This document shows, in pieces, positions 4,065-41,136 of a stretch of DNA of 64,000 nt (position 1 is the first letter of the stretch; each line of letters starts with the position of its first letter). The DNA lies in NCBI RefSeq assembly GCF_014930455.1, contig NZ_JAAIYO010000012.1, positions 186,001-250,000 of the forward strand, read 5' to 3'. The notes beneath the pieces are model-generated. The model did not search any database. It was given only the letters and a program-made list of their open reading frames with translations, and was not told the DNA's origin. Origin of the DNA: Corallococcus soli (GTDB lineage Bacteria; Myxococcota; Myxococcia; Myxococcales; Myxococcaceae). Position numbers and translations under genes: made by a program.

Positions 4065-4880
4065 ATGACCACCGAAACCCCCAGCAAACCGAACCGGCTC
4101 ACCGGCGCCTTCGTCCAGTCGGTGGAGGGCTTCGGCAAGGGGCTCATCGACGTCGTCGCCACCATTGGCGGCGTGGTCGCCATGGGCCTGGACATCTTCC
4201 GCTGGAGCGTCCGGCGCCCCTACCGCCTGCACAACCTGTTCACCCAGCTGGACTTCGTGGGGGTGGGCTCCATCTTCATCGTCGGGCTCACCGGCAGCTT
4301 CACCGGCATGGTGTTCGCCCTCCAGACATCCACCGCCTTCGCCCTGTTCGACGCGGAGAGCCTGGTGGGCCCCACGGTGGCGCTGACGCTCACCCGCGAG
4401 CTGTCCGCCGTGTTCGCCGCCCTGATGGTCACCATGCGCGCCGGCTCCGCCATGTGCACGGAGCTGGGCACCATGCGCGTCTCCGAACAGGTGGACGCGC
4501 TGGAGACCATGGCCGTCAACCCGGTGCAGTACCTGCTGGTGCCCCGGGTGCTGGCGGGCCTGTTCATGGTCCCGGCCCTCACCATGCTCTTCAACACCAC
4601 GGGCATGACGGGCGCGTACATCGTCGCGGTGTTCGGCCTGGGCATCTCCCCCGGCACCTTCCTGTCGCGCACCCAGCAGTGGATGTCGCCCTCGGACGTC
4701 TATGAGGGCCTCATCAAGGGCGCCATCTTCGGCCTGGCCGTGGCCCTCATCTGCTGCTTCAAGGGCTACAACGCCTCCGGCGGCGCCAAGGGCGTGGGGC
4801 AGGCCACCACGGAGGCGATGGTGGCCAGCGCCCTGTCCATCTTCATCCTCGATTTCATCGTCGGCATGATGATGCACTGA
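4065..4880 (+). CDS. mlaE: MlaE-family lipid ABC transporter permease
   Basis: Inner-membrane permease of the Mla (MCE) phospholipid transport system, which moves lipids between the inner and outer membranes. The 271-residue length is typical. Several hydrophobic segments follow an amphipathic start, including 'SIFIVGLTGSFTGMVFALQ' and the conserved 'AGSAMCTELGTMRVSEQVDALETM' region with its coupling-helix glutamates. The family motif 'VPRVLAGLFMVPALT' is present. The stop and the ATG of the ATPase gene share one base (TGATG), so the two subunits are translated together. The MCE protein gene follows 1 kb downstream. Confidence 0.93.
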   Translation: MTTETPSKPNRLTGAFVQSVEGFGKGLIDVVATIGGVVAMGLDIFRWSVRRPYRLHNLFTQLDFVGVGSIFIVGLTGSFTGMVFALQTSTAFALFDAESLVGPTVALTLTRELSAVFAALMVTMRAGSAMCTELGTMRVSEQVDALETMAVNPVQYLLVPRVLAGLFMVPALTMLFNTTGMTGAYIVAVFGLGISPGTFLSRTQQWMSPSDVYEGLIKGAIFGLAVALICCFKGYNASGGAKGVGQATTEAMVASALSIFILDFIVGMMMH

Positions 4881-5674
4881 TGGGCCCGCCGGACTCCCCC
4901 TCGGCTCCGCCCGCGTCCACCGGGTCGAAGAAGCCGATGATCGACATCGTGGACCTGCACAAGACCTTCGGTCCCAACAAGGTCCTCACCGGCATCAACC
5001 TCACCGTGCCGGCGGGCAGCACCTGCGTCATCCTGGGCGGCTCCGGCTCCGGCAAGACGGTGCTGATGAAGCACATGATCGGCCTGCTCAAGCCGGACAC
5101 CGGCAAGGTCGTCATCGACGGGGAGGACATCGTCCCCATGAGCGTGCAGGGCCTGCAGCAGGTGCGCCGCAGCTTCGGCATGGTGTTCCAGGCCGCCGCG
5201 CTCTTCGACTCCATGACCGTGTTCGAGAACGTCGCCTTCCCCCTGCGCCAGCACACCTCCCTGGGGGAGGACGCCATCCGGGAGAAGGTGCGCAAGCGCC
5301 TGGACCTGATGGGCCTCAAGCCGGAGGTGGAGGGCCGCTTCCCCGCGGACCTGTCCGGCGGCATGCGCAAGCGCGTGGGCCTGGCGCGCGCCGTCGTGCT
5401 GGACCCCAAGGTCGTCCTCTACGACGAGCCCACCACCGGCCTGGACCCCATCACCACCGACTCCGTGGACGAGATGATCCTCACCGCGCAGAAGGAATTG
5501 GGCGTCACCAGCGTGGTCATCAGCCACGACATCGCCTCCGCCTTCAACGTGGCGGATCAGATTGCCTTCCTCTCCAAGGGCGTCATCGTGGAGAACGGCC
5601 CCCCGGAGCAGCTGCGCGAGTCCTCGCAGCCGGCCGTCCAGGTCTTCCTCCAGACGTGGTTTGGCAAGAACTAG
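4880..5674 (+). CDS. mlaF: MlaF-family ABC transporter ATPase
   Basis: ATP-binding subunit that powers the MlaE permease. Walker A GGSGSGKT is at residues 53-60, followed by the Q-loop 'GMVFQAAALFDSMTVFENVAFPL', which is typical of Mla ATPases. The signature LSGGM, Walker B 'VVLYDEPTTGLDP' and the H-loop 'VVISHD' are also present. An N-terminal extension of about 19 residues rich in Pro and Ser precedes the core fold. Starting instead at Met20 would give a standard-length protein, but the ATG at 4880 is directly coupled to the mlaE stop. The permease and the MCE protein flank it. Confidence 0.93.
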   Translation: MGPPDSPSAPPASTGSKKPMIDIVDLHKTFGPNKVLTGINLTVPAGSTCVILGGSGSGKTVLMKHMIGLLKPDTGKVVIDGEDIVPMSVQGLQQVRRSFGMVFQAAALFDSMTVFENVAFPLRQHTSLGEDAIREKVRKRLDLMGLKPEVEGRFPADLSGGMRKRVGLARAVVLDPKVVLYDEPTTGLDPITTDSVDEMILTAQKELGVTSVVISHDIASAFNVADQIAFLSKGVIVENGPPEQLRESSQPAVQVFLQTWFGKN

Positions 5675-5707
5675 GGACCGCAAGGACTTCCGCATCCCAT
5701 GAAAAGC

Positions 5708-5723
5708 TGGCACCCGGCATGCA
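5708..5723 (+). promoter_or_regulatory. Sigma-54 (RpoN) promoter match upstream of mlaD
   Basis: TGGCAC at 5708-5713 and ATGCA at 5719-5723 place the GG and GC dinucleotides exactly 12 bases apart, as the -24/-12 class requires. The -24 box is perfect. The -12 box differs by one base from TTGCA. Transcription would begin near 5734, about 36 bases before the GTG of the MCE gene. This would allow mlaD to be expressed apart from mlaE and mlaF. No enhancer site was identified. Confidence 0.45.
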
Positions 5724-5769
5724 AATGGTTAGAGTCGCGCGCGGCCGGTAGCGTTCGGAGTCACATCAG

Positions 5770-7299
5770 GTGAAGAAGCTCGTCACGCCCTTCCGTGTGG
5801 GCCTGCTGGTCATCGCCGCCGGGGCCTTCCTGGTCACGTTCGTGTTGTTCGCCCGCAAGGGTGGGCTGAGCGACCGGGAGTCCACCCAGGTGTGGGCCTA
5901 TTTCCGGGACGCCTCCGGCCTCGCCGTGCGCGGCCGGGTGCAGATCGCCGGCATCCCCGTGGGGGAGATCAGCGACATCACCCTGGAGGGCACCCGCGCC
6001 AAGGTCTGGCTGAAGATCCGCAACGGCGTGGACGTGCGCCAGGACGCTGCCATCACCAAGCGCTCGGAGTCGCTGCTGGGCGACTACCTGTTGGATCTGA
6101 ACCCGGGCACGGAGCAGGCCCCCGCGCTGGAAAACGGGGGGCAGATCCGCCGCGTCATCGACACCCAGGGCATGGAGGCGGTGTTCGAGTCCCTGTCGCA
6201 GATCACCTCCGACATCCAGCAGGTGACGGGCGCGCTGCGCGAGGTGCTGGGCGGGGAGAAGGGCGCAGGCTCCCTGGAGCGCATCGTGGAGAACCTGGTC
6301 CGCCTGTCGGACTCGGTGGACGCGACGGTGCGCCGCAACACGGACCGCCTGGACACCATCATGGCGAACGTGGAGGGCGTGTCCTCCGACGTGCGCGCCA
6401 TCACCCAGAGCAACGGGGCGGAGGTGGGCCGCATCGTCACCAACGTGGAGATGATCACCAAGGACGTCCGCGAGGTGCTGGGCACCGTCAAGAACATCGT
6501 GGGCAGCGGGGAAGGGGAGCTCAAGGAGAGCGTCTCCAGCCTCAAGCAGACCCTGGGACGGCTGGACAACACGCTCGCCAACCTGGAGGACATCACCCGC
6601 AAGGTGAAGGACGGCGAGGGCGCCGCGGGCGCGCTGCTCGCCGACGAGCAGCTGGGCCAGCGCGTCAGCGAGGCCATCACCGACGTCTCCGACTTCACCA
6701 CCCGCCTCACCAACCTCCAGACGGAGGTGGGCCTGTTCAGCACGTACCTGGTGTCCCAGGGCGCGTCGAAGAACGGCCTGTCGCTGCGGCTCATCCCCAA
6801 GCCGGACAAGTACTACCTGCTGGAGATCATCGACGACCCCCGCGGCTCGGTGAGCACGCAGGTGGTGCAGACGAACCCGCCGTCGGAGGGGGACCCGGTC
6901 ATCCAGACGCAGAAGGTGACCAAGGAGTCCTTCAAGGTCAGCCTCCAGTTCGCCAAGCGCTACTACTTCACCACCCTGCGCGTGGGCCTCATCGAATCCA
7001 CCGGTGGCGTGGGCGCGGACCTGCACTTCTTCGACGACGCGCTCACCCTGCGGATGGACGCGTTCAACTTCACGGCGGACGAGCTGCGCTACCCGCGCCT
7101 GCGCGCCACGCTGCGCGCCCAGGCGTTCGACCACCTGTTCGTGGTCGCGGGCATGGACGACATCATCAACGCCCGGCAGCGTGACGCGACCACCAAGCGC
7201 CTCATCGCCGGCCGCGACTTCTTCTTCGGCGCGGGCTTCTTCTTCACCGACGACGACCTGAAGTCCCTCATTGTCACCACGGGCATCCCCGCCTTCTAG
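5770..7299 (+). CDS. mlaD: MlaD-like MCE-domain lipid transport protein
   Basis: A 509-residue inner-membrane-anchored periplasmic protein with a GTG start. One transmembrane helix (residues of about 7-27, 'VGLLVIAAGAFLVTFVLFA') is followed by the MCE domain (about 40-120), with 'FRDASGLAVRGRVQIAGIPVGEI' typical of the lipid-binding ring. Residues of about 130-320 are long alpha-helical, with many heptad-like hydrophobics, probably a needle or coiled coil. The last 170 residues are beta-rich ('ADLHFFDDALTLRMDAFNFT') and resemble an outer-membrane-type strand pattern. It is much longer than E. coli MlaD (about 180 residues), closer to the extended MCE proteins. A sigma-54 promoter match lies just upstream. 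Confidence 0.88.
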   Translation: MKKLVTPFRVGLLVIAAGAFLVTFVLFARKGGLSDRESTQVWAYFRDASGLAVRGRVQIAGIPVGEISDITLEGTRAKVWLKIRNGVDVRQDAAITKRSESLLGDYLLDLNPGTEQAPALENGGQIRRVIDTQGMEAVFESLSQITSDIQQVTGALREVLGGEKGAGSLERIVENLVRLSDSVDATVRRNTDRLDTIMANVEGVSSDVRAITQSNGAEVGRIVTNVEMITKDVREVLGTVKNIVGSGEGELKESVSSLKQTLGRLDNTLANLEDITRKVKDGEGAAGALLADEQLGQRVSEAITDVSDFTTRLTNLQTEVGLFSTYLVSQGASKNGLSLRLIPKPDKYYLLEIIDDPRGSVSTQVVQTNPPSEGDPVIQTQKVTKESFKVSLQFAKRYYFTTLRVGLIESTGGVGADLHFFDDALTLRMDAFNFTADELRYPRLRATLRAQAFDHLFVVAGMDDIINARQRDATTKRLIAGRDFFFGAGFFFTDDDLKSLIVTTGIPAF

Positions 7300-28620: not shown

Positions 28621-29541
28621 CTACTTGCCGGCGAAGACGTTCATCACGTCCTTGAGCAGCTTCACGGACTCGTCGTGCGGACGCTGGAACGCGTTGCGGC
28701 CCATGATGGAGCCGAAGCCGCCACCCTGGTGGATCTGCTTGATGTCGTCCATGAGCGCCGACGTCTCCTTCGCCTCGCCGCCGGAGAAGATGACGATGCG
28801 CTTGCCGTTGAACGCGGAGCGCACGACTTCGCGCACGCGGTCCGCCAGCGTCTTGGTGGGAATGTTGGCCTTTTCGAAGGCCTTCTTCGCCTCGGCCTGC
28901 TCCAGGAAGTCCGTGGGCGGCTTCACCTTGATGACGTGCGCGCCCATCTGCGCGCTGATCTGCGCCGCGTACGCCACCACGTCGATGGCCGTCTCACCCT
29001 CCTTGGACAGGGCGCCGCGCGGGTAGGCCCACAGCACGGTGGGCAGGCCGTAGGACTTGGCCTCCGCGATGATGTCGCGCAGGTCCTCGTACTGCTCGTT
29101 GCGGGCGGCGGAGCCCGGGTAGATGGTGTAGCCGACCGCCGTGCAGCCCAGGCGCACCGCGTCCTTCACGGACGACGTCACCGCGGACATGGGCGCGGCC
29201 GTCTTGGCCAGCGAGTCGGAGTTGTTCACCTTGAGGATGAGGGGAATCTCGCCCTGGAGCTTGCCGGCGACGGCCTCCAGGAAGCCCAGCGGCGCCGCGT
29301 ACGCGTTGCAGCCCGACTCGATGGCCAGCTGCGCGTGGTAGTCCGGATCATACCCGGCCGGGTTCGGACCGAAGGAGCGCGCGGGGCCGTGCTCGAAGCC
29401 CTGATCCACCGGGAGGATGACGAGCTTGCCCGTGCCCGCCAGCGTGCCGCTGTTCAGCAGCCGCGCCAGGTTCGTCAGCGTGCCGGGGTTGTCGGAGGGG
29501 TACCAGGAGAGGATCTGCTTGACGCGGTCGGTGTGTGCCAT
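28621..29541 (-). CDS. Class I fructose-bisphosphate aldolase (FbaB/DeoC type)
   Basis: A 306-residue Schiff-base aldolase of the archaeal/FbaB class, which splits fructose-1,6-bisphosphate to triose phosphates. 'LVILPVDQGFEHGPARSF' is the family N-terminal motif. 'HVIKVKPPTD' contains the Schiff-base lysine region, and 'KRIVIFSGGEAKE' supplies the phosphate site. 'GGFGSIMGRNAFQRP' ends the barrel. The ATG at 29541 follows AAGGAAA. The same frame stays open for another 1.8 kb upstream, across the divergent tolC gene, but that part is a shadow. Confidence 0.93.
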   Translation of the reverse strand: MAHTDRVKQILSWYPSDNPGTLTNLARLLNSGTLAGTGKLVILPVDQGFEHGPARSFGPNPAGYDPDYHAQLAIESGCNAYAAPLGFLEAVAGKLQGEIPLILKVNNSDSLAKTAAPMSAVTSSVKDAVRLGCTAVGYTIYPGSAARNEQYEDLRDIIAEAKSYGLPTVLWAYPRGALSKEGETAIDVVAYAAQISAQMGAHVIKVKPPTDFLEQAEAKKAFEKANIPTKTLADRVREVVRSAFNGKRIVIFSGGEAKETSALMDDIKQIHQGGGFGSIMGRNAFQRPHDESVKLLKDVMNVFAGK

Positions 29542-29775
29542 GTGGATTTCCTTGAAGGAAGGCGTCGAACTCGGCGCGGGATTCTGCGTTCCCTGCGCGC
29601 GCCGACCAAGCTTTGTCTGAAGGGAATGTCGTGGATTGTCACGCGCGCTACGGGGGCTCCTCGTGTGGGCGGGACTGGGCGGAAGCAGACGTCTGGCACT
29701 GAGCGCCGGCACACAGAAATGCTGCACCGGCGCGGGCTTCCGGATATGCCCGCCGCACACGAGGCGGACCACAGC

Positions 29776-31656
29776 ATGGGCAGAGAAGTCGGCAGGGTCG
29801 TCGCAGTGGCAATGATGCTCACGGGCGGTATTTCGGGCGCGCAGCTCTCCCCCACGACCGCTCCCTCGAACGCACCGGGAACGGGCGCTCCGGGCACCGC
29901 GGCCCCCTCTCCCGGCAGCCTGTCTCCCGCCACCATTCCCTCGCCGGGCGCCTCGGGAAGCCAGGGCACGCCGGGCATGCCCGGGACCTCCGGAACGGGC
30001 TCCTCTTCGGGCAGCCCTGTTCCAGGCGCCGGTTCGATGTTGCCGCCCGGTCCGACGCCGGTGAACGCGGGGCAGGCGGCCGAGGCCGGCAACGCCGCGC
30101 AGAGCGCCGCCTCCTCCGCGCCGAAGACCTCCACGACGATGCAGGGCACGCCGGGCGCGGGTGCCCCACCAGGCGCGGGTGTTCCGCCCACCACGGGTGC
30201 CCCAGGCACGGGTGTCCCCGGTGTCGGCCGCACGCCGGGCGGCGGAGCCAACGCTCCGGGCGGTGGCGTCCCCGGAAGCAGTCCGCTCGGAGACAGTGCG
30301 CCCGTGACAGGAGAGGCGCCGGGCGCCGTCGCCGGCGCGAAGCCGCCCAAGGGCCCCATCACCCTGGCCCAGCTCGTGGAGCGGGCGCGCACCCAGGACG
30401 CGCGCGTGGCGGAGGCGAGCGCGGAGCTGCGCAAGTTCCAGGCGCTGCACCAGCAGGCGAAGTGGGCGTGGTTCCCCAAGTTCGAGATCACCCTGGGCGC
30501 GGGCGGCCCCGTCCCCGAGGCGCGCAACGACGGCCTGGGCGGCCCGCCCACCACGGAGGCGTCGCTGGAGGGCGACTGGAACTTCGGCAAGGTGGGCGTG
30601 ACGGTGTTCTCCACCGGCAACGCGGTGCTGCCGCTGTACACGTTCGGCAAGCTGTCCGCGCTGGAGAAGGCGGGCGAGCAGGGCCCCATCGTCGGCGCGG
30701 CGTTGCGCGAGCGTGTGCGCGCGGAGGCCGGCTTCCAGGCCGCGCAGGCGTACTACGGCTATCAGCTGGCGCGCACCGGCCTGAAGCAGCTGGAGGACGT
30801 GTCCAAGCGCCTCAAGGACGCGGGCGACCGCATCGACGCGCTGCTCAAGGAGGACTCGGATCAGGTGGCGAAGCTGGACACGTACAAGCTGGGGTACTTC
30901 CGTCAGCTCGTGGAGGGCCAGCGCGCCAGCGCCCTGCAGGGGGAGCAGTTCGCGCTCACCGCCATCCGGCTGCTGGCCAGCGCCGCCCCGGGTGAGCAGG
31001 TGGAGGTGGTGGAGGAGGAGCTGCCGCTGCGCGAGGACGTGAAGGTGCCCGACCTGGAGACCGCGCTGAAGCAAGCCAACGAGCGCCGTCCGGAGCTCAA
31101 GGCCATCTCCGCCGGCATCATCGCGCGCGAGCAGGAGGTCCTCATCCGCGAGCGCAGCTACTACCCGGACCTGGGCCTCGCGGGCTTCTACGACGTGCGC
31201 TGGACGAGCAGCGCCACGCGCCAGCGCAGCCCCTTCGCGTACGACCCGTACAACGACCGGACCGTGGGCCTGGGCCTCGTGGTGCGCGGCACCTTCGACA
31301 TCCCCATCAAGGACGCGCAGTTGGATCAGGCCCGCGCGGAGCTGGACAAGCTGCGCGCGCAGGAACAGACGCTCAGGGCCGGCATCCAACTGGAGGTCAC
31401 GCAGGTGCAGAGCCAGCTCGTCGCGGCCTATGCGCGGGCGAAGTCCTTCACGGAGGCGGAGAAGAACGCGAAGCGCTGGGCCACGGCCGCCTACGCGGCC
31501 TTCGACCTGGGCACCGGCGACACGCGCGAGCTGGTGGACTCCTTCACCGCGCTGGCCCAGGCGTCGGCGGAGCGGGGCAAGAGCTGGTTCGATGTGCGCG
31601 TGGGGATGGCCTCCCTGGCACGCGTGACGGGTGCCGTCCCGGCCGCGGATGAATAA
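29776..31656 (+). CDS. TolC-family outer-membrane protein with long Pro/Gly-rich leader
   Basis: A 626-residue protein. The ATG at 29776 gives the signal 'MGREVGRVVAVAMMLTGGISGA'. Residues of about 24-195 are low complexity (PGTGAP, PSPGAS and PGGGV repeats). The remainder is TolC-like: two repeated helical halves with 'LAQLVERARTQDARVAEASAELRKFQ', 'RAEAGFQAAQAYYGYQLARTGLKQLE' and 'SYYPDLGLAGFYDVRW'. TolC proteins form outer-membrane channels with periplasmic tunnels. Here the next gene is MlaC, so a lipid-export or retrograde-transport channel is plausible instead of drug efflux. No RND or MFP partner adjoins it. Confidence 0.85.
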   Translation: MGREVGRVVAVAMMLTGGISGAQLSPTTAPSNAPGTGAPGTAAPSPGSLSPATIPSPGASGSQGTPGMPGTSGTGSSSGSPVPGAGSMLPPGPTPVNAGQAAEAGNAAQSAASSAPKTSTTMQGTPGAGAPPGAGVPPTTGAPGTGVPGVGRTPGGGANAPGGGVPGSSPLGDSAPVTGEAPGAVAGAKPPKGPITLAQLVERARTQDARVAEASAELRKFQALHQQAKWAWFPKFEITLGAGGPVPEARNDGLGGPPTTEASLEGDWNFGKVGVTVFSTGNAVLPLYTFGKLSALEKAGEQGPIVGAALRERVRAEAGFQAAQAYYGYQLARTGLKQLEDVSKRLKDAGDRIDALLKEDSDQVAKLDTYKLGYFRQLVEGQRASALQGEQFALTAIRLLASAAPGEQVEVVEEELPLREDVKVPDLETALKQANERRPELKAISAGIIAREQEVLIRERSYYPDLGLAGFYDVRWTSSATRQRSPFAYDPYNDRTVGLGLVVRGTFDIPIKDAQLDQARAELDKLRAQEQTLRAGIQLEVTQVQSQLVAAYARAKSFTEAEKNAKRWATAAYAAFDLGTGDTRELVDSFTALAQASAERGKSWFDVRVGMASLARVTGAVPAADE

Positions 31657-31722
31657 CCCTTCCAGGCCGCCAGTCTTCCAACGCGTCGTTTCACGCGTCC
31701 TTCAACCTGGAGCTTCATCAAA

Positions 31723-32361
31723 ATGATTGCTTCCCTGCTTGCCGCCACGCTGCTTGCCGCCGCGCCCGTGACTCCGCTCAACGTCGTGAAGTCGGGCAAC
31801 GCGGACGTCCAGAAGGCCGCCAACGCGCCGGGCGCCACCGTCCAGTCGCTCGCGTCCGTCGTGGAGAAGTTCGTCGACTTCGAGGAACTCGCCAAGCGCG
31901 CCATGGGCGAGAAGGCCTGGGCGGGCCTCACGCCCACCCAGCGCAAGGACTTCACCGACACCATGACGGGCCTGCTGCGCGCCTCGTACGCCCAGAAGGC
32001 CATCGGCCAGGCGAAGGCGGAGGTGGCCTACGGCAAGGAGAGCGTGCAGGGGAACGAGGCCACGGTCGACACGAAGCTCACCGTGAAGGCTGACCAGGTG
32101 CCCGTGGACTACAAGCTCTACCGGACCTCCGCGAAGACGGACTGGCGCATCTACGACGTCATCACCGACGAGGTCTCCCTCGTGGACACCTACAGCGGCC
32201 AGTTCCGGAAGATCCTCCAGACGAAGGGCTTCGACGGCCTGATGACGACGCTCAAGTCCAAGCGCGCGCAGCTGGAGAAGGAGAACGCCAACACCAGCGC
32301 CGCGTCGGTGAAGGACACCGCGGCCGGCACGACGGGCGCCGCGCCCCAGACGGCGAAGTAG
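31723..32361 (+). CDS. mlaC: MlaC-family periplasmic lipid carrier
   Basis: A 212-residue exported protein; 'MIASLLAATLLAAAP' is the signal peptide. It has the MlaC/Ttg2D fold: helical 'VVEKFVDFEELAKRAMG', 'WAGLTPTQRKDFTDTMTGLLRASYA', then strands 'VDYKLYRTSAKTDWRIYDVI' and 'LVDTYSGQFRKILQTKGFDGLM'. It ferries phospholipids between the outer-membrane and inner-membrane Mla complexes. In E. coli it is encoded with MlaDEF; here it is 22 kb away, beside a TolC-type gene that lies 66 bases upstream. The tail is Ala/Thr-rich. Confidence 0.9.
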   Translation: MIASLLAATLLAAAPVTPLNVVKSGNADVQKAANAPGATVQSLASVVEKFVDFEELAKRAMGEKAWAGLTPTQRKDFTDTMTGLLRASYAQKAIGQAKAEVAYGKESVQGNEATVDTKLTVKADQVPVDYKLYRTSAKTDWRIYDVITDEVSLVDTYSGQFRKILQTKGFDGLMTTLKSKRAQLEKENANTSAASVKDTAAGTTGAAPQTAK

Positions 32362-32387
32362 CGGGGGAGGGGGCTCTACGTGTCTGC

Positions 32388-32414
32388 TCCGCCCGGGCCG
32401 TGAGCCCGGGCGGA
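32388..32414. terminator. Bidirectional terminator hairpin between convergent genes
   Basis: TCCGCCCGGGC and GCCCGGGCGGA form an 11-bp perfect stem with a 5-base loop. It lies between the mlaC stop (32361) and the end of the minus-strand acyltransferase gene (32437), so it can serve both. Confidence 0.65.
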
Positions 32415-32436
32415 ACGTCCCAAGGGGCCGGACAGC

Positions 32437-33618
32437 TCAGACGGGCCGCTGGAACACGCGGTACGTCTTGGAGCGCTGGCCGCCCATGGACTCGATGGCG
32501 CGGTTGACCAGGTGGTTGTCCTCCAGCGTCCAGGAGATCTCCCCACCCGTGTAGCCCAGCGCCTTCGCGGTGCGCAGCGTGTCCAGGTACAGGATGGCGT
32601 CCAGGCCGCGGCGCCGGTAGCCCTCCTTGATGCCCAGCGTGAGCAGGCGCAGCCGCTTGAGGCTGCGCGACGCCAGCACCAGCTTCATCAGGCCAATGGG
32701 CAGGCCGAACGTGGTGAGGCGCCCGTTGGCTGCCTTGAAGGCCGGGTTGGCGTCCGGCAGCGTCATGGAGAAGGCGACGGGCTCCCCCTTCACCTCCGCG
32801 ATGAGCACCAGCTCCGGCCGGACGATGGTCTTCATCTCCTTGGCCATGTGGTCGAACTCGCGCTCGGTGAACGGGATGAAGCCCCAGTTCTTCTCCCAGG
32901 CGGAGTTGTAGACCTCCTTGATGCGGGCGACCTCCGCGGGGAAGTCCTTCAGGTTCACGGGGCGCACGGTGACGCCCTCGCGCTGACGGATCTTCTCCGC
33001 GATGCGCGCCACCTTCTCCGGTGGCTCCGCGGACGAGGACAGCTCGTAGGCCCACAGGTCCTTGGCCTTGGTGAAGCCGCACGTCTCCAGCAGCCCCAGG
33101 TAGTACGTGGGGTTGTACGGCATCATCAGCGCGGGGGGCGTGTCGAAGCCCTCCACGAGCAGGCCCCAGTCCTGGTTGGAGGAGAAGTTGGCAGGCCCCA
33201 GCAGCCGGTCGATGCCGCGCGCCTTCAGCCACGCGCTGGCGGCGTCCAGCAGCCCCCGGGCGACGCCCGCGTCGTTCACGCACTCGAAGAGGCCGAAGAA
33301 GCCCTCCTTCGTGCCGTGGACCTCCATGTGGCGCGGGTTCTTGATGGCGGCCACCCGGCCCACCACGTCCGAACCACGCCGCGCGAGGAACAGCTCCACC
33401 TCCGCGTAGTCGAAGAAGGGGTTCTTCTTCGGATCCAGGAAGTCCTTGCGCTCCATCTCCAGCGGCGGCACCCAGTTCGGGTCGTCACGGTAGAGGGCGT
33501 AGGGCAGCCGGATGAAGGCCGTCCGGTCCGACGCGCCGCGCACGGGCGTCACCTGCACGTCCGAGGGCATGGGAGGGAGGGTGGGGGAGGCGACGTCGTG
33601 CTCGGCGGGGTGGGCCAT
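32437..33618 (-). CDS. GNAT-fold acyltransferase, candidate bacterial ceramide synthase
   Basis: A 393-residue cytoplasmic protein. Residues of about 55-120 and 280-385 look like GNAT acyltransferase elements, including 'VGRVAAIKNPRHMEVHG', 'LTLGIKEGYRRRGLDAILYLDTL' (a pyrophosphate-loop-like R-R-x-G-L) and 'GGEISWTLEDNHLVNRAIESMGG'. The gene begins 9 bases after the serine palmitoyltransferase stop, so the two form an operon. In Caulobacter, the ceramide synthase bCerS is a GNAT-like protein of similar size encoded close to spt. I infer the same role here, acylating the long-chain base. Homology to bCerS was not tested. Confidence 0.6.
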   Translation of the reverse strand: MAHPAEHDVASPTLPPMPSDVQVTPVRGASDRTAFIRLPYALYRDDPNWVPPLEMERKDFLDPKKNPFFDYAEVELFLARRGSDVVGRVAAIKNPRHMEVHGTKEGFFGLFECVNDAGVARGLLDAASAWLKARGIDRLLGPANFSSNQDWGLLVEGFDTPPALMMPYNPTYYLGLLETCGFTKAKDLWAYELSSSAEPPEKVARIAEKIRQREGVTVRPVNLKDFPAEVARIKEVYNSAWEKNWGFIPFTEREFDHMAKEMKTIVRPELVLIAEVKGEPVAFSMTLPDANPAFKAANGRLTTFGLPIGLMKLVLASRSLKRLRLLTLGIKEGYRRRGLDAILYLDTLRTAKALGYTGGEISWTLEDNHLVNRAIESMGGQRSKTYRVFQRPV

Positions 33619-33627
33619 GAGGGAGGC

Positions 33628-35181
33628 TCAGTTCCTTTCGGCCGGGTTGCCGTCGGAGGAGCCGTCGCCGTTGCGCATGAACAGGTGGGCGCCCTTCTCC
33701 AGCAGCAGGCCCCCCAGCTCGCTGCGCTTCTCCCAGAGCTTCTTGGGCGCGCCACCCAGCCGGCGCAGGTCCTCCGGCTGCAGGTTCGCCGCGCGCCAGG
33801 TGAGCTGCTCCACCGCGTCGAAGAACTTGCCCGCCATCTCGCGCGAGGACATGCGCGACAGCTGCTCCAGCGAGAAGCCCTTGTCCGCGAGCAGGCCCGC
33901 GGAGCCCGCGGCCCACGTCTCCGACGCCTTGTTGCCGCGCACGCCGCTGCCCGGCCGGGCGATCTGCACCGGCTCGTACACCGTGGGGCGCGTCTCCGGG
34001 ATGACGTTCAGCTTGCGGCCGATCTTCTCGAAGGTGTCCAGCACCTGGTCCAGCTGCGCGTCGGTGTGCGTGGCCATGTAGCTGGTGCGGATGAGCGCGT
34101 GGCCCGCCTCCACCGCCGGGGGGATGACGGGGTTGGCGAACACGCCCGCCTCGTGCAGCGCGCGCCAGAAGCGGAAGCACTTCACCTGATCGCCGATGTG
34201 CACCGGCACCACCGGCGTCACCGACACGCCCGTGTCGAAGCCCATGGCGCGGAAGCCATTGTGCATCTTCTCCGCGATGTCCAGCAGGCGCACGCGGCGC
34301 TCCGGCTCCGCCTCGATGATCTCCGTCGCCTTGAGCGCCGCCGCGATGGACGCGGGCGTCATGGACGCGGAGAAGATGACCGAGCGGGCCTTGTGGCGGA
34401 TGTAGTTGATGACGTCGAACGGCCCCGCGAGCACGCCGCCCAGCGACGCGAAGCTCTTGGAGAACGTCCCCATGACCAGGTCGACGTCCTTCTCCATGCC
34501 GAAGTATTCGGAGGTGCCCCGGCCCAGCTCGCCCAGCACGCCCATGGCGTGCGCGTCATCCGTCATCACGCGCGCGTTGTACTGCTTGGACAGCTCCACG
34601 ATGCGGGGCAGGTTGCAGACGTCGCCCTCCATGGAGAACACGCCGTCCGTGACGATGATCTTCCCGGCGCCCGGCTCCGCGGCGGCCAGCAGCTGCTCCA
34701 GGTGCTCCATGTCGTTGTGGCGGAACTTGCGCTCCGTCGCGAACGACAGGCGCACGCCGTCCACCAGCGAGGCATGGTTCTGCCGGTCGCTGAAGACGAT
34801 GTCGTGGCGGCCCAGGATGGATGCGAGCGCCAGGTTCGTCTGGAAGCCGGTGGAGATGACGATGGCCGACTCGCGGTTGAGGAACTTCGCCAGCCGCGCC
34901 TCCAGCTCCTCATGCAGCGCGAGCGTGCCGTTGAGCAGGCGAGACCCCGAGCACGTCGTGCCGAACTTCTCCGTCGCCTTGATGGCCGCTTCCTTGACGC
35001 GCGGATCCGCGGCCAGGCCCAGGTAGTTGTTCGAGCCCACCATGATGACCCGGCGACCTTCGATCTCCACCTCCGTGGAGCCGTGCGACGCTTCGATCGC
35101 CCGGAAGTACGGATACAGGCCGGTGGCCTTGGCGATGCGGTAGTCCTTCCAGGTACGGCACTTGTCGAACACGTCGCTCAT
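33628..35181 (-). CDS. spt: Serine palmitoyltransferase (alpha-oxoamine synthase)
   Basis: Condenses serine with an acyl-CoA to start sphingolipid synthesis. The PLP enzyme shows 'NHASLVDGVRLSF' (His136), 'TDDAHAMGVLG' (Asp209, His211) and the PLP lysine Lys242 in 'GTFSKSFASLGG'. The family also includes glycine C-acetyltransferase and KAPA synthase. The sphingolipid setting (acyltransferase, PAP2 and RND transporter) favours serine palmitoyltransferase. At 517 residues it is about 110 longer than usual: a C-terminal helical tail from about residue 400 ('FSLEQLSRMSSREMAGKFFD') is extra. A promoter match lies about 115 bases upstream. Confidence 0.85.
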   Translation of the reverse strand: MSDVFDKCRTWKDYRIAKATGLYPYFRAIEASHGSTEVEIEGRRVIMVGSNNYLGLAADPRVKEAAIKATEKFGTTCSGSRLLNGTLALHEELEARLAKFLNRESAIVISTGFQTNLALASILGRHDIVFSDRQNHASLVDGVRLSFATERKFRHNDMEHLEQLLAAAEPGAGKIIVTDGVFSMEGDVCNLPRIVELSKQYNARVMTDDAHAMGVLGELGRGTSEYFGMEKDVDLVMGTFSKSFASLGGVLAGPFDVINYIRHKARSVIFSASMTPASIAAALKATEIIEAEPERRVRLLDIAEKMHNGFRAMGFDTGVSVTPVVPVHIGDQVKCFRFWRALHEAGVFANPVIPPAVEAGHALIRTSYMATHTDAQLDQVLDTFEKIGRKLNVIPETRPTVYEPVQIARPGSGVRGNKASETWAAGSAGLLADKGFSLEQLSRMSSREMAGKFFDAVEQLTWRAANLQPEDLRRLGGAPKKLWEKRSELGGLLLEKGAHLFMRNGDGSSDGNPAERN

Positions 35182-35558
35182 GGTGGTCTTTCTTACGCGT
35201 CGGGGGGTGATCCGAGCCGGTTTCCGTATGCAGGGCTCGTTCCGGTGTCGGACCGCCCGGTGCGCGCGACCACCCAGGGGACGACGCGTGGGGGTGAATA
35301 AAGAGGGAAATCCGCACTGTCAAGGCAGCGACGTTTCCCGAGCACGCCGCATGGGACATCCATGTCAGGGCGCGCCTTGACAGTCATGCCCCATCAGTGG
35401 CACGCCGCGCCTCCTGAACGTTGTCCACCAGTGGATGCTCCAACACCCCGAGCACACACGGGTTCACACGGGGAATGGGTTCCCGGGGGCCGGCTGTTTC
35501 GGGGGCCGGGCTCGTGGCCGGCTTCTTGCTGCGCCGGCACGCATCAGAGGAGCAGACG
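35182..35558. other. Divergent intergenic region between spt and the RND transporter gene
   Basis: 377 bases without a gene, serving two divergent units. The minus strand has a promoter match at 35295-35323. The plus strand has a perfect TTGACA at 35377-35382 without a good -10 box. The block from 35295 to 35325 is AT-richer than the surroundings. I see no further feature. Confidence 0.5.
35295..35323 (-). promoter_or_regulatory. Likely housekeeping promoter for spt
   Basis: On the minus strand TTGACA (35323-35318) and TATTCA (35300-35295) are 17 bases apart. The -35 is perfect; the -10 agrees at 3 of 6 positions (TAT). The spacer and flank are AT-richer than the region around them. The start point would be near 35288, leaving a leader of about 107 bases. 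Confidence 0.5.
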
Positions 35559-38096
35559 GTGTCCCAGACGCGACGACAGCGGTGGTTCGACGGCTTCATC
35601 CGGACAGTGATGTCGCGCCCCTGGCAGGTGCTGCTCGCCGTCGCCCTGGTGACGGTCGGCGCGGGCCTCATCGCGTCGAGGCTGGAGTTCCGCGGCTCCT
35701 TCGTGGAGCTGCTACCGGAGGGTGCCCCTGAGGTCCGGGATCTGACACGCGTGTCAGAGAAGGCGGGGGGCGACGGGTACCTGGTCCTCATGGCGAAGGG
35801 CGCGACGCCGGAGGCCCTCAAGCGCTACGCCGCCGAACTTCAGGCGCGGCTGGAGGCCCTGCCGGAGGTCCGCTACGTCGAGCATCGCTATGACGTGGCC
35901 TTCTTCCGCCGCCACGCGCTGCTGCTGCTGCCCACGGAGAAGGTGGCCGCGCTCCGCCAGGATCTCCAGGCCCGGGTCCGCTACGAGAAGGAGCGCGCAA
36001 GCCCCCTGTTCGTGGACCTGGGCGCGGAGGAGGCGCCGCCCACCTTCGAGGAGATCGCCCGGAAGCATACGCCTGACACGGCGATGCCGGAGATGCTGGC
36101 CAGCAGGGACGGCTCCGAGGTCTACCTGATGATCAAGCCGTCGGGGACGGCGGGGGACCTGGACTTCGCCCGGCGCTTCGTGGCGACGGCGCTGGAGACG
36201 GGCCGCGCGCTCGCGGCGGCGAGCTATCCGGGCGTGACGCTGGAGGCGACGGGCAACTTCCAGAACCGCATTGAAGAGGACGCGGTGATGCGCCGCGACT
36301 TGTCGAACGCGGGCCTGCTGTCCGCGCTCATCGCCGTGGGGCTCATCCTGCTGGCGACGCGGCGCGTGTCGGCGCTGGCGGTGGTGGGCATGCCGGTGGT
36401 GGTGGGGCTGGTGCTGACGTTCGCGTTCGCGCAGGGCGCCATCGGGCACCTCAACATCGTGACGGGCTTCCTCGTCGCCATCCTCATCGGCCTGGGCATC
36501 GAGTACGGCGTGCACCTGGCGATGCGCTACTGGGAGGAGCGGGAGCGCCACGGAGTGCGCGAGGCGCTGACGGCCGCCGTGCGCGGCACCTTCGGGGGCG
36601 CCCTCACGTCCGCCTTCACCAACGCGGCGGCGTTCTTCGTGCTGATGCTGGCGCAGTTCCACGCCTTCCAGCAGTTCGGCCTGCTCGCGGGCCTGGGCGT
36701 GCTCATGGCGGTGCTGTCCGCTTACGCGGTGGGCCCGTCGCTGCTCGCCATCGCGGAGCGCATCCGGCCCTTCCGCAAGGAGCCCGCGCAGGGTGGGGTG
36801 CCCCAGGCCCAGGAGGCCCTGGTGTCGCCCACCCCCGCCGCGCCGGCCGCCCCGGAGAAGCCGTGGCGGCGCTGGCCCACCGGGCTCATCACCGCCATCG
36901 CGCTCCTGGTCGTGGGCTTCGCCGCGTACTCGGTGCGGGTCGCGCCCCACCTGGGCTTCGAGACGAACCTGCGCAACCTGAAGGGGGACTCTCCGGCGTC
37001 GCGGCTGGATGACCACATCACGGAGCAGATCGGCGCGCCGCTCAACCCGGCCATCCTGGCGGTGGATTCGCTGGAGCAGGTGCGGGAGGTGGAGGCCGTC
37101 ATCGCCCGGGTGAAGGCGGAGAACGGCGCGAACTCCGTGTTCCTGCGCACCGCCTCCCTGGGGGACCTGGTGCCCTCGGACACGGCGGGCCACGCGGCGG
37201 AGCTGGGCCTCATCCGCGCGCTCCTGGACGGGCTCCCGGCCTCCTCGCAGGCTGACGCGCGGGTGAAGGACTTCCGGGCCCTGGTGGACGCGAAGCCGTA
37301 TGGCCTGGAGCAGGTGCCGGTGGAGGCGCGTCGCCGCTTCGAGGCGGTGGGCGGCCAGGGCCTGTTCCTGCTGCTGTTCCCTTCGGTGTCCAACTACGAC
37401 ACGCAGGATCTGAACCGCTGGGCGGCGCAGCTGGATCAGGTGGTGGCGGGGGCGAAGCAGAAGGGCATCGACCTGGCGGTGCTGGACAGCAACCGCATCG
37501 CGGCGCGCATCTTCACGCTGGTCCAGGCGGACGGTCCGTTCATCCTCTGGGCGGCGGCCGCGGTGGTGTTCGCGGTCATCTTCATCAGCCTGCGCAGCTT
37601 CAAGAAGGCGCTGCTGGTGGCGGGCCCGCTGTTCCTGGGCATGACCTGCCTGGCGGGAGGGATGTACCTCTTCGACGTGCAGCTCAACTTCATCAACGCG
37701 GTGGTGCTGCCCAACCTGCTGGCCATCGCGGTGGACAACTCGGTGCACCTGTACCACCGGTACGAGGAAGAGGGCCCCGGGTCGCTGGGACGGGTGGTGC
37801 GCAACACCGGCTTCGCCGCGGTGATCGCGACCCTGTCCAACGCGGCGGGCTACGGAGCGCTGCTGGTCGCCAACCACCAGGGCCTGCGGAGCATCGGACA
37901 GATTGCGCTGCTGGGGGTCGTGTCCACCTTCCTGGGGACGACGGTGTTCTTCCCGGCCATGCTGGCGCTGCTGGAGCGGTGGAGGGGGCGGCGGTCCGCG
38001 GTGGTGCCCGAAGCAGGGGCGGTGGTGCGGAGCCTCAATCTCGGAGGGGCCGACGAGCTGTCGGCCGAATCGCCGGGGGAGCGCAAATCGGCGTGA
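35559..38096 (+). CDS. RND/MMPL-family lipid transporter (HpnN-like)
   Basis: An 845-residue inner-membrane protein. A GTG at 35559 follows an AGAGGAG site and gives the start 'MSQTRRQRWFDGFIRTVMSRP'. Two matching halves each have one helix, a large periplasmic domain and five helices, for example 'VVGLVLTFAFAQGAIGHLNIVTG' and 'LLAIAVDNSVHLYHRYEEEG'. 'GIEYGVHLAMRYWEER' is the MMPL/HpnN signature with the acidic proton-relay residues. Such pumps move hopanoids, glycolipids or other lipids. Its position between spt and the Aur1-like gene suggests sphingolipid or hopanoid export. The stop overlaps the next GTG by 4 bases. Confidence 0.88.
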   Translation: MSQTRRQRWFDGFIRTVMSRPWQVLLAVALVTVGAGLIASRLEFRGSFVELLPEGAPEVRDLTRVSEKAGGDGYLVLMAKGATPEALKRYAAELQARLEALPEVRYVEHRYDVAFFRRHALLLLPTEKVAALRQDLQARVRYEKERASPLFVDLGAEEAPPTFEEIARKHTPDTAMPEMLASRDGSEVYLMIKPSGTAGDLDFARRFVATALETGRALAAASYPGVTLEATGNFQNRIEEDAVMRRDLSNAGLLSALIAVGLILLATRRVSALAVVGMPVVVGLVLTFAFAQGAIGHLNIVTGFLVAILIGLGIEYGVHLAMRYWEERERHGVREALTAAVRGTFGGALTSAFTNAAAFFVLMLAQFHAFQQFGLLAGLGVLMAVLSAYAVGPSLLAIAERIRPFRKEPAQGGVPQAQEALVSPTPAAPAAPEKPWRRWPTGLITAIALLVVGFAAYSVRVAPHLGFETNLRNLKGDSPASRLDDHITEQIGAPLNPAILAVDSLEQVREVEAVIARVKAENGANSVFLRTASLGDLVPSDTAGHAAELGLIRALLDGLPASSQADARVKDFRALVDAKPYGLEQVPVEARRRFEAVGGQGLFLLLFPSVSNYDTQDLNRWAAQLDQVVAGAKQKGIDLAVLDSNRIAARIFTLVQADGPFILWAAAAVVFAVIFISLRSFKKALLVAGPLFLGMTCLAGGMYLFDVQLNFINAVVLPNLLAIAVDNSVHLYHRYEEEGPGSLGRVVRNTGFAAVIATLSNAAGYGALLVANHQGLRSIGQIALLGVVSTFLGTTVFFPAMLALLERWRGRRSAVVPEAGAVVRSLNLGGADELSAESPGERKSA

Positions 38097-39079
38097 ACAT
38101 CTGGTCTTTCAGCGGGGGGCGCGTGCTTCCCCATGTCTCAGTCCGGGGGCAGTCGGAGGGGGCGCTCGTGCGCTTCCGCCAGGTGGACCTCGTGCTGATG
38201 GCCGCCTGCTCGGTGGCGGCCCTGGTCTGCGTGGGCCCGGCCCGCTGGGCGCCCGGCTCCACCCGGAGCGCCTGCCTGTTCGGCCTGATGGCGCTGGGCG
38301 TGCCGCTGCTCCGCATGCTGGAGGCGCGCTTTCCGCGCCAGCCGCTCATCGCCATCGCGGCGGACTTCTGGCTGCTGCCCGTGTCGGCCCTGTCGCACGG
38401 GTGGCTGGGGCCCATCGTCGACTGGATGAACCCGCTGGTGAAGGACGCCCAGCTCATCGCGGTGGACGAGCGGCTCTTCGGCTTCCAGGCGGCGGTGTCG
38501 CTGTCCCACGTCGTGCCGCCGTGGGCGAACGACGTGCTGATGCTCTGCTACTACGGCCACTTCATCTGGCCGCTGCTGCTGGGCATCTTCCTGTACGCGC
38601 GCGGCCGGGGGCCCACGCCGGGCTTCGACGAATACCTGCTGGGCCTGGGGCTGCTCCTGAGCTTCAACTACGCGGCGTACTCGCTGGTGCCCGCGGTGGG
38701 CCCGCGCTACTTCCTCGTCGGCGCGTTCGACGGCGGGCTGCGCGGCTGGCTGCTCACGCCGCTGCTGGAGTCGATGATGCGCGGGCCGGTGTACACCCGG
38801 GACTGCTTCCCGTCCGGACACACCGGGGTGGCGCTGGTGGTGCTCTTCTACGCGTTCCGGTTCGCCCGGCGCTTCTTCTGGGTGATGCTGTTCCCCGGCC
38901 TGGGCCTCATCTTCGCGACGCTGTCCGGGCGCTTCCACTACACCATCGACCTGGTGTGCGCGGTGCCCCTGGTCCTCGTGGTGACGGGGCTGGCCCTGGC
39001 GCTGTCCCGGGCCGCCCGGCAGCGGGCGGTGGAACAGAACGCGCGCTCCGTGCCGGTGGACGCTATCGTCAGGCCCTGA
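38093..39079 (+). CDS. PAP2/Aur1-like membrane phosphatase or phosphotransferase
   Basis: A 328-residue membrane protein whose GTG overlaps the stop of the transporter gene (GTGA), with a GGGGGAG site before it. It has about seven hydrophobic segments. Active-site motifs are 'RDCFPSGHTGVALVV' (His) and 'SGRFHYTIDL' (His, Asp), plus 'VPAVGPRYFLVG'. This matches the PAP2_3/Aur1 group, which includes inositol-phosphorylceramide synthase. A head-group transfer step on ceramide is therefore plausible in this locus, but a plain lipid-phosphate phosphatase is equally possible. Confidence 0.82.
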   Translation: MNIWSFSGGRVLPHVSVRGQSEGALVRFRQVDLVLMAACSVAALVCVGPARWAPGSTRSACLFGLMALGVPLLRMLEARFPRQPLIAIAADFWLLPVSALSHGWLGPIVDWMNPLVKDAQLIAVDERLFGFQAAVSLSHVVPPWANDVLMLCYYGHFIWPLLLGIFLYARGRGPTPGFDEYLLGLGLLLSFNYAAYSLVPAVGPRYFLVGAFDGGLRGWLLTPLLESMMRGPVYTRDCFPSGHTGVALVVLFYAFRFARRFFWVMLFPGLGLIFATLSGRFHYTIDLVCAVPLVLVVTGLALALSRAARQRAVEQNARSVPVDAIVRP

Positions 39080-39144
39080 AGCGCCAGCCGGTCGCCCCAT
39101 GGCGGGGGTGGACGTGCGCTGGCGCCCCTCGTTGAGGCCCGTCC

Positions 39145-40353
39145 ATGTCCGCCCGGCCCGTGCTCTCGCAACGCGTCTCCCGCTTCGGCACCACCGTCTT
39201 CTCCGAGTTCAGCGCGCTGGCGCTGAAGCACCACGCCGTGAACCTGGGGCAGGGCTTCCCCGACTTCGACGGGCCGGAGGAGGTCAAGCGGGCCGCCTGG
39301 GAGGCCATCCAGGGCGGCGTCAACCAGTACGCCCCGGGCGTGGGCGCGAAGGGGCTGCGCGACGCCATCGCGGAGCACTCGCAGCGCTTCTACGGCCACG
39401 CCGTGGATCCGGACACCATGGTGTCCGTCACCAGCGGCGCGACGGAGGCCATCCTCGACGTGCTCCTGGGGCTGGTGGATCCGGGCGACGAGGTCATCGT
39501 CTTCGAGCCGTTCTACGACTCCTACGACGCCAGCATCGCCTTCGTCGGCGCCACGGCGCGCTACGTGCCCATCCGTCCGCCGGACGCGGAGCACGCCGCG
39601 TGGTGGTTTGATCGGGACGAGGTGAGGGCGGCCTTCGGCCCGCGCACGCGGCTGCTCATCCTCAACTCGCCCCACAACCCCACGGGCAAGGTCTTCACCC
39701 GCGAAGAGCTGGAGTTCCTGGGCAACCTCTGCGCCGAGCACGACGTGAAGGTGCTGTCGGATGAAGTCTACGAGCACATCGTCTTTGCCCCCGCGCGTCA
39801 CATCCGCGCCGCCACGGTGCCGGTGCTCGCGGACCGCACGGTGACGGTGAGCAGCGCGGGCAAGTCCTTCAGCCTCACCGGGTGGAAGATTGGCTGGATC
39901 ATCGCGCCGCCGCCCCTGCGGGACGCCGTGCAGCGCGCGCACCAGTTCGTCACCTTCGCCACCGCGTCCCCGTTCCAGGCGGCCATGGCCGTGGCGCTGC
40001 GGATGCCGGACGCGTACTTCCAGGGGCTGACGGCGCTCTACACCGCGAAGCGTGAGCGGCTGCTCGCGGGCCTGCGCGCGGCGGGGCTCACCGCGCATTC
40101 CCCCGAGGGCAGCTACTTCATCCTCGCGGACATCGCGGGCTACGGCTTCGAGGACGACGTGGCCTTCTGCCGGCACCTGGTGACGCAGGTGGGCGTGGCG
40201 GGCATCCCCCCCAGCGTCTTCTACGGCGCGGAGCACCGGCACCTGGGCCAGCGCTTCGCGCGCTTCGCCTTCTGCAAGACGGAAGGGGTGCTCGACGAGG
40301 CCGCGCGCCGGCTGCGCGAGAAGCTGCCCGCGCTCGCCGCGGCGAAGCGCTGA
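39145..40353 (+). CDS. Class I/II aminotransferase (kynurenine/methionine aminotransferase type)
   Basis: A 402-residue PLP enzyme. The start 'FSEFSALALKHHAVNLGQGFPDFDGPEEV' is typical of the KAT/YbdL subgroup. PLP motifs include 'SGATEAILDVLLGLV', 'LNSPHNPTGKVFTREEL' (Asn), 'LSDEVYEHIVF' (Asp, Tyr) and 'SSAGKSFSLTGWKIGW' (Schiff-base Lys). The C-terminal 'RFAFCKTEGVLDEAARRL' contains the carboxylate-binding Arg. It transaminates aromatic amino acids, glutamine or methionine. The methyltransferase gene starts 19 bases downstream. Confidence 0.9.
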   Translation: MSARPVLSQRVSRFGTTVFSEFSALALKHHAVNLGQGFPDFDGPEEVKRAAWEAIQGGVNQYAPGVGAKGLRDAIAEHSQRFYGHAVDPDTMVSVTSGATEAILDVLLGLVDPGDEVIVFEPFYDSYDASIAFVGATARYVPIRPPDAEHAAWWFDRDEVRAAFGPRTRLLILNSPHNPTGKVFTREELEFLGNLCAEHDVKVLSDEVYEHIVFAPARHIRAATVPVLADRTVTVSSAGKSFSLTGWKIGWIIAPPPLRDAVQRAHQFVTFATASPFQAAMAVALRMPDAYFQGLTALYTAKRERLLAGLRAAGLTAHSPEGSYFILADIAGYGFEDDVAFCRHLVTQVGVAGIPPSVFYGAEHRHLGQRFARFAFCKTEGVLDEAARRLREKLPALAAAKR

Positions 40354-40372
40354 AGCCCCGCCCGGCGCGCCC

Positions 40373-41101
40373 GTGTCCGACGACTTCTTCGGGGAGCTGT
40401 ACCTGCGCAGCACGCTGCCGTTCCTCTCCGAGGAGGTGACGGCCCGGGAAGGGGAGTACCTGGCCCGGGCGTTCGCGTCCGTGGACGGGCCCGTGGTGGA
40501 CCTGGGCTGTGGCCACGGGCGTCATGCGGCGCGGCTCAACGCGGAGGGCGCGCTGGCCGGGCGGGTGGTGGGCCTGGAGCGGGATCCGCTGTCGCTGCGC
40601 CTGCGCCGGCCCGGCTTCCCGGTGGTGCGGGGCGACCTGCGGGCGCTGCCCTTCCAGGCCGGGTCGCTGGGGGGCGCCTACGCCTGGTATTCGACACTCT
40701 TCGCCTTCTCCGACGAGGAGCACGTCCAGGTGCTGCGCGAGGTGGCGCGGGTGCTCAGGCCCGGGGGGCTGCTCGTCTTCCAGACGGTGCCGTACGAGCG
40801 GCTGGCGCGATCCCCGGGCGCGGCGTTCCGGGAGCGGTTACCGGATGGGAGTCTCCTGGAGGAGGAGAGCCGCTTCGACGCGATGCGTGGGAGGGACGTG
40901 GGGCAGCGCCAATTGACGCTGCCGGAGGGACGCGTGCTGCGAGCGGCGTACGCCATTCGTTACTATCCTCTTGCGGAACTCAGGGGGCTGTTGGAAAGCA
41001 CGGGCTTTTCGATGGCATGGGTGCACGGAGGCCTGGATGGCGGGCCGATGACACCCGACTCGACCGACCTCATCGTGGGAGCAGGGCTCCGGCAGGGCTG
41101 A
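40373..41101 (+). CDS. Class I SAM-dependent methyltransferase, substrate unknown
   Basis: A 242-residue cytoplasmic methyltransferase starting at GTG. The Rossmann SAM site is 'VVDLGCGHGRHAARLN', followed by 'VVGLERDPLSLRLRR' (acidic ribose residue) and 'GDLRALPFQAGSLGGAYAWYSTLF'. The substrate domain is not diagnostic. It lies between the aminotransferase and HMG-CoA lyase genes on the same strand and may be co-transcribed with them. A small-molecule substrate is likely but unproven. Confidence 0.82.
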   Translation: MSDDFFGELYLRSTLPFLSEEVTAREGEYLARAFASVDGPVVDLGCGHGRHAARLNAEGALAGRVVGLERDPLSLRLRRPGFPVVRGDLRALPFQAGSLGGAYAWYSTLFAFSDEEHVQVLREVARVLRPGGLLVFQTVPYERLARSPGAAFRERLPDGSLLEEESRFDAMRGRDVGQRQLTLPEGRVLRAAYAIRYYPLAELRGLLESTGFSMAWVHGGLDGGPMTPDSTDLIVGAGLRQG

Positions 41102-41136
41102 ACCAGGCCCGCGTACCGCGCCCAGGACACGTCCAA

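Follow-up and report, generated by a model that had tools for sequence, protein, structure and literature searches.

The Mla system of E. coli contains a periplasmic lipid carrier of the MlaC fold that needs an outer-membrane partner, MlaA, and hopanoid transport by HpnM-HpnN pairs an MlaC-family protein with an MMPL transporter. Pumps of the AcrAB-TolC type are tripartite, with an RND-superfamily pump, an adaptor and TolC. The tolC-mlaC gene pair of Corallococcus soli has likenesses to all of these. It lies at 29776-32361 of the window, which here means the whole stretch of 64,000 nucleotides analysed (contig NZ_JAAIYO010000012.1, positions 186,001 to 250,000), and there is about an even chance that its products serve an MMPL-linked lipid export route in Myxococcota, TolC as the outer-membrane component and MlaC as the periplasmic one. 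The component families are known and their combination is new; no description of an MlaC-TolC(-MMPL) pair in Myxococcota was found in the literature searched, which was partly judged by title and had most subscription papers and bioRxiv outside its scope.

Unlike E. coli Mla, the myxobacterial set has a TolC-type partner, an mlaC outside mlaEFD, a long MlaD and no MlaA that could be found. It differs from HpnM-HpnN in its scores, which fall below the family cut-offs, in the added TolC and in its sphingolipid and inositol neighbours. Runs of MMPL-MlaC-TolC hold an RND-superfamily pump and TolC together, as in AcrAB-TolC-type pumps, but carry no adaptor gene where scanned, and the MlaC carrier takes the adaptor's position. 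The mlaEFD-tolC-tamB operon of Veillonella, as described in the available part of Grasekamp 2023 (PMC10665443), also has tolC beside lipid-transport genes and lacks MlaA; it has no MlaC, whereas in myxobacteria TolC is partnered by MlaC and for the most part not by MlaEFD. Excerpts of PMC11324152 propose LptF2/LptG2/LptC2, which are Lpt paralogues, for sphingolipids in Caulobacter and relatives, and there too the candidate transport genes lie beside spt and ceramide synthase, but the proteins are unrelated, and a bridge model stands against the soluble carrier and TolC considered here. In E. coli BL21, lptG/lptF adjoin spt. The same excerpts (PMC11324152, 2024) give sphingolipid transport from the inner to the outer membrane as presently not known, a question that the recurrent MMPL-MlaC-TolC set, with its sphingolipid and inositol-lipid synthesis, makes testable in Myxococcus xanthus.

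The TolC-type protein matches the OEP family (PF02321) with 96 bits against a cut-off of 22, and scores 33.5 bits with the type I secretion TolC model TIGR01844, below its cut-off of 225.15. The AlphaFold2 model of its core (30304-31653, mean pLDDT 83.3) has TolC, OprN and ST50 structures at Foldseek ranks 1-13 (TMq 0.71-0.77), which points to a TolC fold. The mlaC gene follows on the same strand after a gap of 66 bp. Its product matches the MlaC family PF05494 with 121.5 bits (cut-off 26), and its model (pLDDT 78.9) has MlaC/Ttg2D-type proteins as best PDB matches, namely 2qgu (TMt 0.81), 8dte (0.83) and the E. coli structure 7vr6 (0.70), consistent with an MlaC fold. The two models, built on alignments of 12 sequences, are of fair confidence.

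The pair is conserved in other Myxococcota. In a survey set of 174 genomes with completeness of at least 85%, MlaC is present in 136, and a profile built on the TolCs of MlaC loci picks out a separate TolC subfamily, whose 137 matches are spread over 126 genomes. Full-length members score at least 280 bits, fragments at least 178 and the other OEPs listed at most 149; matches were counted above 170 bits, fragments included (three in G007, one each in G140 and G132), and an intermediate in G089 (158.7 bits) was left out. All but one of the 126 genomes have MlaC as well; MlaC occurs without this TolC in 11 genomes, and 37 have neither (Fisher p 8e-27, overstated as the genomes are related). Among the 150 MlaC matches listed, 109 of the 137 TolC matches have one within 500 bp, measured between profile matches and not gene ends, and of these 108 are on the same strand, with 101 in the TolC-MlaC and seven in the MlaC-TolC order. 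For 28 TolC matches no listed MlaC is closer than 3 kb; in two of these the distance is 3.7 and 4.1 kb, and the others lie on different contigs or are undecided among the MlaC matches listed.

In a quick tree, a branch with SH-aLRT 98 divides 53 TolCs from MlaC loci (including that of the window) from 12 further OEPs of the window genome, although the profile that gathered the members was itself seeded by the window TolC, and deep placement is uncertain because of long OEP branches. All gene arrangements described below share this one TolC group. One clade holds the TolCs of the MlaC-TolC order and another those from mlaE-mlaD runs (100 and 100), the corresponding MlaCs group likewise (92 and 98), and MlaCs that lack an adjoining TolC are scattered over the MlaC tree. 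Since the window genome has only two MlaC and three MCE matches and 25 OEP-domain matches, it is unlikely that a TolC gene adjoins mlaC by chance. Chance neighbours were also rejected on the strength of the conserved pair and the separation of these TolCs from the other OEPs of the genome.

Three arrangements occur. The TolC-MlaC order of the window is the commonest. The MlaC-TolC order has an MMPL gene directly upstream in three of seven loci (L047, L055, L087). A contig scan with two short peptide patterns from members of this order, a weak test of distribution outside Myxococcota, found 11 loci, labelled Myxococcota, Myxococcales, Deltaproteobacteria and once Bdellovibrionales (L147, same phylum); eight of these contigs (five of the 11 are new and six were already among the fetched loci) have MMPL-MlaC-TolC in line. 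The third arrangement, mlaE - short mlaD - tolC - mlaC, is found in two genomes of one family code (G013 and G014), with no mlaF seen there, and each of these genomes carries a pair in the TolC-MlaC order as well (L054, L041).

Genes for lipid synthesis and transport recur beside the pair. Neighbours were counted over about 8 kb where the contig allows (many loci stop at contig ends) for 53 fetched loci with both genes, picked for spread and not at random, 16 of them from the window's family. This set leaves out the window itself, L141-L151, the second-MlaC loci (L121, L124-L128) and loci that have MlaC without TolC (L038, L044, L045, L063, L064, L069, L072, L073, L075, L077, L078, L080, L082, L085, L093, L095, L131, L137). 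MMPL genes are present at 17 of the 53 loci (seven family codes), PAP2 at 15 (five), MIPS or CDP-OH/GtrA at 13 (five), and genes like serine palmitoyltransferase (SPT) or a ceramide-synthase-like acyltransferase at 12 (two), where the SPT profile also catches distant relatives (e.g. L091, 32% identity). At least one of these MMPL, PAP2, inositol or sphingolipid genes accompanies 29 of the 53 pairs, in eight of 14 family codes. None of the four classes appears at any of 20 control MlaE loci, hand-picked and without G013 and G014, where MlaC is likewise absent and the TolC profile matches at two. MIPS and this TolC or MlaC are no more than 6 kb apart at 15 places in five family codes; the positions were picked by eye, genomes have one to three MIPS matches, and the sole denominator is the 116 genomes with MIPS. 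In one locus (L065), MMPL, TolC, MlaC, CDP-OH, GtrA, PAP2_3, MIPS, SPT-like and acyltransferase genes lie within 16 kb. Another (L150) is a tight same-strand run of MIPS, CDP-OH_P_transf/GtrA, MMPL, MlaC, TolC, histidine phosphatase, response regulator and histidine kinase genes, several of which overlap.

In the window, the SPT-like and N-acyltransferase genes (Table 1) represent these two enzymes of a bacterial ceramide synthesis cluster, as judged from their identities to the E. coli BL21 proteins; with the best NCBIfam SPT model the former scores 510 bits, below the cut-off of 640. The available part of PMC9386255 describes BL21 ECD_02850 as a possible ceramide-forming N-acyltransferase, and from gene order YghO would be this protein.

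These neighbours suggest that the pair may be part of the machinery that takes sphingolipids and inositol lipids to the cell surface. An HpnN-like MMPL (RND) transporter would lift newly made lipid from the inner membrane, a soluble MlaC-type carrier would ferry it across the periplasm in the stead of an adaptor protein, and a TolC-type trimer would accept it at the outer membrane, where E. coli has MlaA; binding, direction and substrate in this scheme are what we infer. The MMPL protein of the window, rather than its relatives in the genome (at least three), would be the pump partner. The cargo in the Corallococcus soli genome is most likely ceramide or ceramide phosphoinositol, the latter fitting because Myxococcus xanthus has been reported to contain it (Lorenzen 2014, cited through an excerpt of PMC9246714). 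If this is true, TolC proteins gain a role in lipid traffic.

Several observations weigh against an MMPL-linked export route for such lipids. No lipid or MMPL gene is found at 24 of the 53 pair loci, which include all loci of six of the 14 family codes, and the neighbour profiles were trained partly on the tested loci, which favours the pair set somewhat over the control. In the MlaC-TolC order, an upstream MMPL was seen in the three of seven and eight of 11 loci given above. A long SPT is missing from 55 of the 126 genomes with this TolC, 12 of the 83 genomes with a long SPT lack the TolC, and three genomes of one genus (G049, G050, G052) have MlaC and SPT without it. The SPT-like and acyltransferase genes of the window are on the opposite strand to tolC-mlaC and therefore do not form one operon with it, the MIPS of this genome sits on another contig, and among named families the window MMPL is closest to those of hopanoid and sterol transport (HpnN and BstA). 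Sphingolipid as the sole cargo was rejected in view of the TolC genomes that lack a long SPT. Together with the loci that lack lipid genes, these genomes suggest that the substrate may vary by lineage or that the module may be a general lipid shuttle.

The earlier note had drawn attention to the pairing of a TolC-like gene with mlaC away from mlaEFD, and this holds: the mlaEFD cluster of the window ends 22.5 kb before the TolC gene and does not include mlaC. It had further proposed that TolC replaces MlaA, a view that a normal mlaA elsewhere and an unconserved pair would have spoken against, and the survey came out the opposite way on both. MlaA (PF04333) has no match in the window genome (99.99% complete), with E. 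coli and Caulobacter controls positive in the same search, and none in the 174 Myxococcota genomes with two positive controls, although a very divergent MlaA could escape. An MlaA overlooked in one genome was rejected accordingly. With the conserved pair and the G013 and G014 runs, which are the best evidence for TolC in the place of MlaA within an Mla-like set, the replacement fits the data and is partly supported. That TolC is the lipid-accepting station of the outer membrane instead of MlaA is a tentative reading, with somewhat less than an even chance; if true, it suggests which protein fills the role of MlaA in a phylum where MlaC is present and no MlaA was found.

The data speak against MlaEFD as the usual partner. 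In a retrograde Mla pathway, the TolC in place of MlaA would hand phospholipid to MlaC, which would feed MlaEFD. Such a pathway, although it draws on the missing MlaA, on the mlaE - short mlaD - tolC - mlaC runs and on the tolC that follows mlaEFD in Veillonella (excerpts of PMC10665443), is unlikely. MlaE is present in 169 of the 174 genomes and is kept in 35 of the 38 that lack MlaC, none of the 20 MlaE loci has MlaC, and mla genes are near three of the 53 pair loci, in one case as ABC ATPases alone, as compared with lipid or MMPL genes near 29. The higher score of the window MlaC with the HpnM model than with the MlaC model, given below, also speaks against MlaEFD as the usual partner. The G013 and G014 runs themselves lack a visible mlaF. 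The MlaD of the window is of the long type, which, in the available part of PMC10665443, is proposed to bridge the envelope without MlaC; from this and the MlaE of MlaC-less genomes, MlaEFD probably works apart from tolC-mlaC and is probably not its usual partner. A general shuttle, with MlaC and TolC moving ordinary phospholipids and MMPL or MlaED pumps plugged in by lineage, would explain why a single TolC group, distinct from the other OEPs of the genome, is common to all three arrangements, and is in keeping with the pair loci and TolC genomes that lack lipid genes or a long SPT. It appears improbable, since linkage to inositol and ceramide genes recurs over several family codes and is not seen in the control.

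An MMPL-linked export route could also carry hopanoids or sterols, as in HpnM-HpnN and BstABC. The best NCBIfam model for the window MlaC is HpnM (79.3 bits, cut-off 160.1, as compared with 40 bits for the MlaC model, also below its cut-off), and the window MMPL is matched best by HpnN (246.7 bits, cut-off 751.85) and next by BstA, with HpnN structures (6wu0/5khn) as its top PDB sequence matches. Each of these scores is below the curated cut-off, the neighbours belong to sphingolipid and inositol synthesis, and no triterpene gene turned up in a scan of 30 window genes, which did not extend to hopanoid genes in the rest of the genome, so that an exporter of this kind is highly improbable. It is barely credible that the protein is an ordinary drug-efflux outer-membrane factor beside mlaC by accident. 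Its predicted TolC fold has no unusual core and would suit that role, but it stands apart from the 12 other OEPs of its genome in the quick tree and is paired and co-occurs with MlaC over the phylum. No adaptor (membrane-fusion) gene is present among the 10 genes at 28621-42111 of the window, although an unlinked adaptor is possible and other loci were not scanned gene by gene, except L150, where none is found among the nine genes scanned. Export of lipid with an MMPL pump remains the preferred reading, and the features of the window that bear on it are given in Table 1.

Table 1. Features of the window (positions count from its first nucleotide).
Feature	Position	Strand	Remarks
mlaE-mlaF-mlaD	4065..7299	+	PF02405, ABC_tran, PF02470; judged a separate system
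mlaE	4065-4880	+	
mlaF	4880-5674	+	
mlaD	5770-7299	+	long type, 509 aa
TolC-type outer-membrane protein	29776..31656	+	626 aa; likely signal peptide, Pro/Gly-rich segment of ~170 residues, TolC core from ~residue 193
Pro/Gly-rich segment of TolC protein	29842..30351	+	43% Pro+Gly, 82% P/G/A/S/T
MlaC/HpnM-type periplasmic lipid carrier	31723..32361	+	212 aa; PF05494
Ceramide-synthase-like N-acyltransferase (GNAT)	32437..33618	-	PF00583; 35% identity over 376 aa to YghO, E. coli BL21 sphingolipid cluster
SPT-like enzyme	33628..35181	-	517 aa; 38% identity over 369 aa to E. coli BL21 spt
MMPL (RND-type) transporter, HpnN/BstA-like	35514..38096	+	PF03176, 127 bits
PAP2_3 enzyme, possible head-group transferase or phosphatase	38093..39079	+	PF14378, 50.8 bits

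The Pro/Gly-rich segment, which the earlier note considered unusual, follows the likely signal peptide and is real. In a comparison of 37 TolCs, with start codons picked by a simple hydrophobicity rule, a Pro/Gly-rich pre-core stretch of 49-192 aa is found in nine (including that of the window), all from the window's family, and the remaining 28 have 15-78 aa before the core, signal peptide included. Because the long form is restricted to one family, the segment was rejected as a key feature; it is a fast-changing lineage trait and no defining part of the protein. A promoter and terminator scan gave nothing above chance.

The MlaD of the window (5770-7299) combines an MCE domain with a long C-terminal part, like the MlaDs proposed to bridge the envelope. 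Two further mlaEFD-type loci are present in the window genome, at G000:C5:449324 (L122) and G000:C3:834366 (L123), and the latter adjoins a second MlaE/MlaF set, with a different TolC at a distance of about 4.5 kb.

On contig C1 of the same genome (L155:6647-17911), MIPS, PAP2_3 and a fused CDP-OH_P_transf/GtrA gene adjoin two further, divergent MMPL genes; from its gene content this is likely an inositol-lipid cluster of the genome. In L150, the histidine phosphatase, response regulator and histidine kinase genes that follow TolC (L150:8272-10990, ends overlapping) are a possible regulator of the lipid operon. In three loci (L041:8661-13151, L052:3834-7654 and L053:3983-7849, family codes f16, f11 and f10), TolC-MlaC adjoins two FHA-domain genes, one of which carries a T2SSE ATPase domain; no lead on transport came from them.

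The second MlaC of the window genome (L121:9501-15159, G000:C6; PF05494, 52 bits) is followed by a PF10136 'SpecificRecomb' gene and then MMPL. This order recurs in L124, L127 and L128, which suggests, from gene order alone, a lipid or envelope role for the so-called recombinase. In G082, of the window's family, an MlaC (L082:8002-8574, contig C1) shares 73% identity with E. coli MlaC and is placed at a distance from the remaining MlaCs of the tree, which suggests a recent transfer or an assembly mix-up.

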